Source: Acidobacteriota bacterium (GTDB lineage Bacteria; Acidobacteriota; Terriglobia; Acidiferrales; UBA7541). From it: 64,000 bases of DNA. Of the stretch, positions 62,176-62,290 are shown one piece after another (position 1 is the first letter of the stretch; every line of letters begins with the position of its first letter). Under the pieces are notes generated by a model, which searched no databases, was not told where the DNA came from, and saw nothing but the letters and a program-made list of their open reading frames with translations. Made by a program: the position numbers and the translations under genes. The DNA lies in contig QHYE01000043.1 in assembly GCA_003224055.1 (NCBI GenBank), forward strand, positions 1-64,000, read 5' to 3'.

Positions 62176-62290
62176 GTTAACCATAACACCCCCCGGCCCC
62201 CATGCTTTTTGTAAGTATATCATTCTAAAGGGAGTTAAAGTCCTTTGTTTTGATAGACTTTTGAAAGAATATCAAAGGAAACGACTTATA
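62176..62290 (+). repeat. Dispersed structured element, copy B
   Basis: GTTAACCATAACACCCC leader as in copy A; arms ATATCA (62217-62222), TTTGATA (62249-62255), TATCAAA (62270-62276). Confidence 0.72.

Follow-up and report, generated by a model that had tools for sequence, protein, structure and literature searches.

The 115-base stretch at 62176-62290, hereafter copy B, is a single member of a short non-coding dispersed repeat, and very probably belongs to a lineage-specific family that occupies long intergenic regions. Contig C23, on which the window (the whole stretch of 64,000 nucleotides that was analysed) is located, belongs to the 4.53 Mb draft genome of a gp2-type soil Acidobacteriota. 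For the family as a whole it is established that its members sit at many non-orthologous places, that they fall into two subtypes, each with a fixed unit spacing, and that among the genomes searched they occur in one genus.

The family's architecture consists of a C-run and a T-run followed by three 24-nt units (approximately TAAGTGTTGATTCTAAAGGACTTA), of which the first and third are direct, while the middle one is inverted and able to pair with either of its neighbours. Each unit has inverted ends, TAAGT...ACTTA, and few columns of the alignments vary less than these ends do. In type II elements, exemplified by copy A at 16046-16180 in the window, a 9-nt spacer separates the first unit from the inverted one and a 12-nt spacer separates the latter from the third, which puts the starts of the direct units at a distance of 69 nt. 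Type I elements, which include copy B, have the same order minus the spacers, and their direct units start 51 nt apart (Table 1). The leader GTTAACCATAACACCCC had been described earlier as common to both copies, and it is indeed found in each (16046-16062 in copy A); in other genomes of the genus it is frequently missing, while the C-run, T-run, and units are kept. When folded as RNA, the + strand of copy A reached −48.1 kcal/mol (z −3.4), and that of copy B a modestly low −24.1 kcal/mol (z −2.1; − strand, z −0.9). We rejected an intrinsic terminator, given that the T-run is located 5′ of the hairpins and that there is no terminator-like site within copy B.

Table 1. Positions of copy B, its parts, the adjoining hairpin repeat, and copy A in the window
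Feature	Position	Strand	Basis or remark
Copy B, type I element without inter-unit spacers	62176..62290	+	Genome matches, subtype alignments
Leader GTTAACCATAACACCCC, 17 nt	62176..62192	+	27 genome places, at most 2 mismatches
C-run then T-run, CCCCC.CCCCC..TG.TTTTTG, the family's conserved left core	62188..62211	+	Alignments
Arm a1 AAGTATATCA, unit 1	62213..62222	+	Pairs with a′ at 9 of 10 positions in copy B and at 5-10 in the other copies of this genome
Arm a′ TGATAGACTT, inverted unit	62251..62260	+	The same sequence in 15 of the 18 type I copies of this genome
Arm a2 AAGAATATCA, unit 3	62265..62274	+	Majority of type I copies have AAGTGTTGAT at that position
Hairpin of copy B only, TTTTGATA / TATCAAAG, inner CTT/AAG, loop TTGA	62248..62277	+	Fold, type I alignment
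Separate REP-like hairpin repeat adjoining the leader, with mismatches between its arms in copy B	62139..62175	+	Arm shuffling test
Copy A, type II element	16046..16180	+	Units at 16080, 16113 (inverted), and 16149; spacers of 9 and 12 nt

A query around copy B gave 37 matches in its own genome and a type II query gave 32, which combine to about 45 distinct places that carry the family. Allowing up to 2 mismatches, the leader alone matched 27 times, compared with once for its reversed control; with at most 3 mismatches tolerated, the unit TAAGTGTTGATTCTAAAG matched 68 times against one for the reversed control, at spacings that were mostly 69 or 51 nt. Given the 37 matches to the copy B query and the excess of leader matches over the control, the resemblance between copies A and B is evidently not due to chance. 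Two of the own-genome copies (L033 and L042) have unit 3 replaced by another, nearly identical sequence (GGCTCTGTTGACATCCTCGAT...), and this shared replacement suggests a nested insertion or a recombination junction.

The sequence-only reading had regarded copy B as a second copy of the same element as copy A, with compensatory changes in its arms, and had seen in the two sequences covariation-like evidence that the fold is selected rather than the primary sequence. The letters and coordinates that it gave all stood: arms a1 and a′ form 9 of 10 pairs in copy B, and the stem TTTTGATA/TATCAAAG lies where it had been placed (62248-62255 and 62270-62277). The a′-a2 loops that it had compared (62256-62269 and 16136-16149) are likewise both 14 nt long, but they were taken in non-homologous registers, and the homologous loops measure 14 nt in copy A and 4 nt in copy B. 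The equal length is an artefact of register, because AAGT/ACTT is paired in copy A and the loop begins after it, whereas the homologous CTT/AAG of copy B encloses TTGA. Nor do the two copies have the same form, A being type II and B type I.

When 15 type I copies from the same genome were aligned, neither helix contained a single pair that had changed on both sides. The a1-a′ helix was 82.8% paired compared with 82.6% after shuffling, in a set of copies retrieved because they resembled the leader, copy A or B, or a1, and in which a1 is thus less variable than in nature. In the a′-a2 helix 47.7% of positions were paired, slid versions did at least as well, and the three outer pairs of the TTTTGATA/TATCAAAG stem are present in copy B alone, being absent in the other 14 aligned copies. 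Pairing of the arms is not constant from copy to copy either: a1 forms 5-10 pairs with a′, and a2 mostly 5 of 10. Judged from these alignments, it is the primary sequence of a′, and not the pairing, that is conserved, since a′ reads TGATAGACTT in 15 of 18 own copies while its pairing with a1 and a2 varies. The covariation argument drawn from A and B fails, because the two belong to different subtypes and the own type I copies lack compensatory pairs. The sequence-only reading had itself named further copies with unpaired arms as what would refute it, and such copies are what the alignment revealed.

Across the genus the arms do match to some extent. We dealt the arms out anew among copies in 5000 shuffles, a procedure that does not fully correct for relatedness. 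In 81 type I copies the a1-a′ duplexes were better than redealt ones (z −6.5; 0/5000), with z only −1.6 when arms were redealt inside genomes, and redealing had little effect on a′-a2 (z −1.9). In 84 type II copies it was a′-a2 that exceeded the shuffled arms (z −4.4; within genomes z −3.4, 4/5000), whilst a1-a′ was not outstanding by energy (z −1.2). Counting pairs at the centre of the unit gave z 6.3 for a′-a2 and 3.6 for a1-a′. For type II copies of the own genome alone, neither helix was clearly significant. We consider some of this genus-wide matching, of a1-a′ in type I and of a′-a2 in type II, to be real. The signal comes mostly from two arm families, AGAATC/GATTCT and GTTTGC/GCAGCT, and to us it looks mainly as though subfamilies whose arms are complementary had been co-inherited; the palindrome may be selected, either as DNA or as RNA.

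These data also bear on the proposal of the sequence-only reading, namely a structured RNA or a bistable switch in which a′ pairs with a1 or a2 and the fold is under selection. The arm matching, the low folding energy of copy A, and the fixed unit spacing are what one might expect of such an RNA, and the two arm families both remain paired although several of the paired positions differ between them. However, apart from the lack of compensatory pairs in the own type I copies, 25 pairs of type II copies that share both flanks yielded only 1 (H1) and 2 (H2) both-sided compensations, equal to slid controls. An excess of G-T over A-C on the + strand depends on a few columns, and we rejected it as proof of a + strand RNA for that reason. 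We consider an RNA fold under selection to be unlikely. A variant that we hold to be similarly improbable requires a match between the middle inverted unit and one of its neighbours, which would be a1 for type I and a2 for type II. The element would then switch, as DNA or RNA, between two mutually exclusive hairpins, and this switch would be copied and matched anew with the spread of subfamilies.

A separate, REP-like hairpin adjoins the leader of copy B and occurs in the flanks of 13 other own-genome copies. Its arms vary between copies and yet are complementary (−9.2 compared with −5.7 kcal/mol for shuffled arms; z −4.65, 0/5000, in one genome), and by this test it is apparently a better case for covariation than the element itself.

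The family is present in at least 28 of the 36 genomes of the genus, and a search of 25 genomes from other genera found it in none; of these 61 genomes, 28 contained type I and 23 type II, every positive being inside the single genus, with copies per genome in these searches to be read as "at least". A scan of 84,980 species with the unit pattern returned 64 stretches, almost all from soil MAGs of Acidobacteria and many labelled gp2, whereas a leader-containing pattern had no match in the genome-collection scan. Four unit-pattern loci are titled Betaproteobacteria; all come from one record set, and the title is probably wrong. The viral contigs of IMG/VR contained no match to the unit pattern, and a phage origin was rejected on that ground. 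In five loci (L122, L125, L131, L136, and L137) the 3′ flanks hold additional leaders of the C-run/T-run kind (CCCTCCCCC..TTTTTGTAA), after which come other sequences resembling the unit, a hint that the family belongs to a larger superfamily.

Orthologous neighbourhoods are mostly without the element, and copies are dispersed at non-orthologous sites. The gene upstream of copy B is kept in relatives, yet none of the related genomes compared has a copy at the same place; one of them (G011) has intergenic DNA recognisably related to the site of copy B, without the element. Similarly, copy A is located at ksgA in the own genome, and among about 20 ksgA loci of the same genus three hold some member of the family nearby (G013, G007, and G010). 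No precise empty site was demonstrated among the relatives compared, because they are too divergent.

With heuristic ORF calls, 95 of 108 elements lay outside ORFs, and across the remaining 13 ran an ORF on the opposite strand. The surrounding genes were convergent in 20 cases, divergent in 24, tandem on the element's strand in 15, and tandem on the other strand in 30, and among the 108 elements we saw no fixed orientation or distance relative to genes. We rejected a cis-regulatory element for want of an orientation rule, bearing in mind that the ORF calling is heuristic. Searches of Rfam at gathering and relaxed thresholds gave no family for the element; this and the missing orientation also count against the structured RNA. 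Two flanks contain RNA matches of their own: a weak Acido-Lenti-1 match (L101 531-559; 25 bits, cut-off 37) about 115 nt downstream of a type II copy, and a tmRNA gene (L126 511-712; 73.5 bits) that starts about 100 nt from another. Alternatively, the element might serve a DNA-binding protein as an array of sites, with the 24-nt unit and its inverted ends repeated at fixed spacing. The constancy of the unit ends and the fixed 69 or 51 nt between direct-unit starts would suit such an array; orientation and distance to genes are inconsistent, though, and the spacing does not correspond cleanly to a whole number of helical turns, and we regard this reading as quite unlikely.

We compared the family with known repeats, taking the criteria for REPs and MITEs from the literature (PMC6006769, PMC3733652, PMC3049150). 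BOX of Streptococcus is a composite intergenic repeat of sub-units, with many copies and predicted stem-loops, whose mover is not established (PMC3049150). The present family resembles it in all of these structural respects, but its units are direct or inverted copies of one 24-nt sequence in fixed number and spacing, and we claim no sequence homology. Bacterial MITEs such as RUP, NEMIS, ERIC, and Nezha are likewise about 115-135 bp long, non-coding, base-paired, and dispersed (PMC3049150, PMC3733652), and the family shares with them non-coding copies at non-orthologous sites. It differs from MITEs in that no terminal inverted repeats were found (the left C-run/T-run core and the right end, ACTTAG, are not complementary) and no partner IS was found. 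No clear target duplication is visible either, but neighbouring repeats blur the element ends.

With REPs, BIMEs, and REPINs and their RAYTs, the family has in common that it is extragenic, palindromic, alternating in orientation, and present in many copies (PMC6006769, PMC3733652). Y1_Tnp genes occur in 29 of the 36 genomes of the genus, and a degenerate Y1 (RAYT-like) transposase remnant (L236 1468-1689; G000:C102:25579-25806) is situated at a distance of about 0.5 kb from a type I copy in the own genome. Could the element be a REP proper, moved by a resident RAYT (TnpA-REP)? It was found in only 1 of 29 Y1 neighbourhoods of the genus, about what chance would give, which mostly refutes a RAYT partner, and the Y1 genes of the own genome number only two, both partial. 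Furthermore, the element has a C-run/T-run leader and a longer composite build, its units are longer than most REPs, and alignments read by eye displayed no conserved GTAG/GTGG or CGTC tetranucleotide at the foot of a short hairpin. We judge a REP proper to be very unlikely.

Copy B is thus best described as one of the dispersed non-coding repeats of this genus, a lineage-specific repeat of an ordinary kind. The family probably spreads as a non-autonomous mobile palindromic repeat, in the manner of REP/BIME, BOX, or MITE elements, with the palindrome possibly being read by a trans-acting enzyme as a single-stranded DNA hairpin or as a protein-binding array. That the mover recognises a hairpin is a guess on our part, and a doubtful one. 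The arms would then match because the palindrome is maintained, or because arms are inherited together within a subfamily, and not because an RNA fold is under selection. The literature that we found on such repeats includes no paper describing the element, and the family appears to be undescribed in the papers and libraries searched. An argument for covariation based on two copies can arise from comparing two subtypes in different registers, and a repeat family that fills the intergenic DNA of an uncultured soil genus is now marked out.
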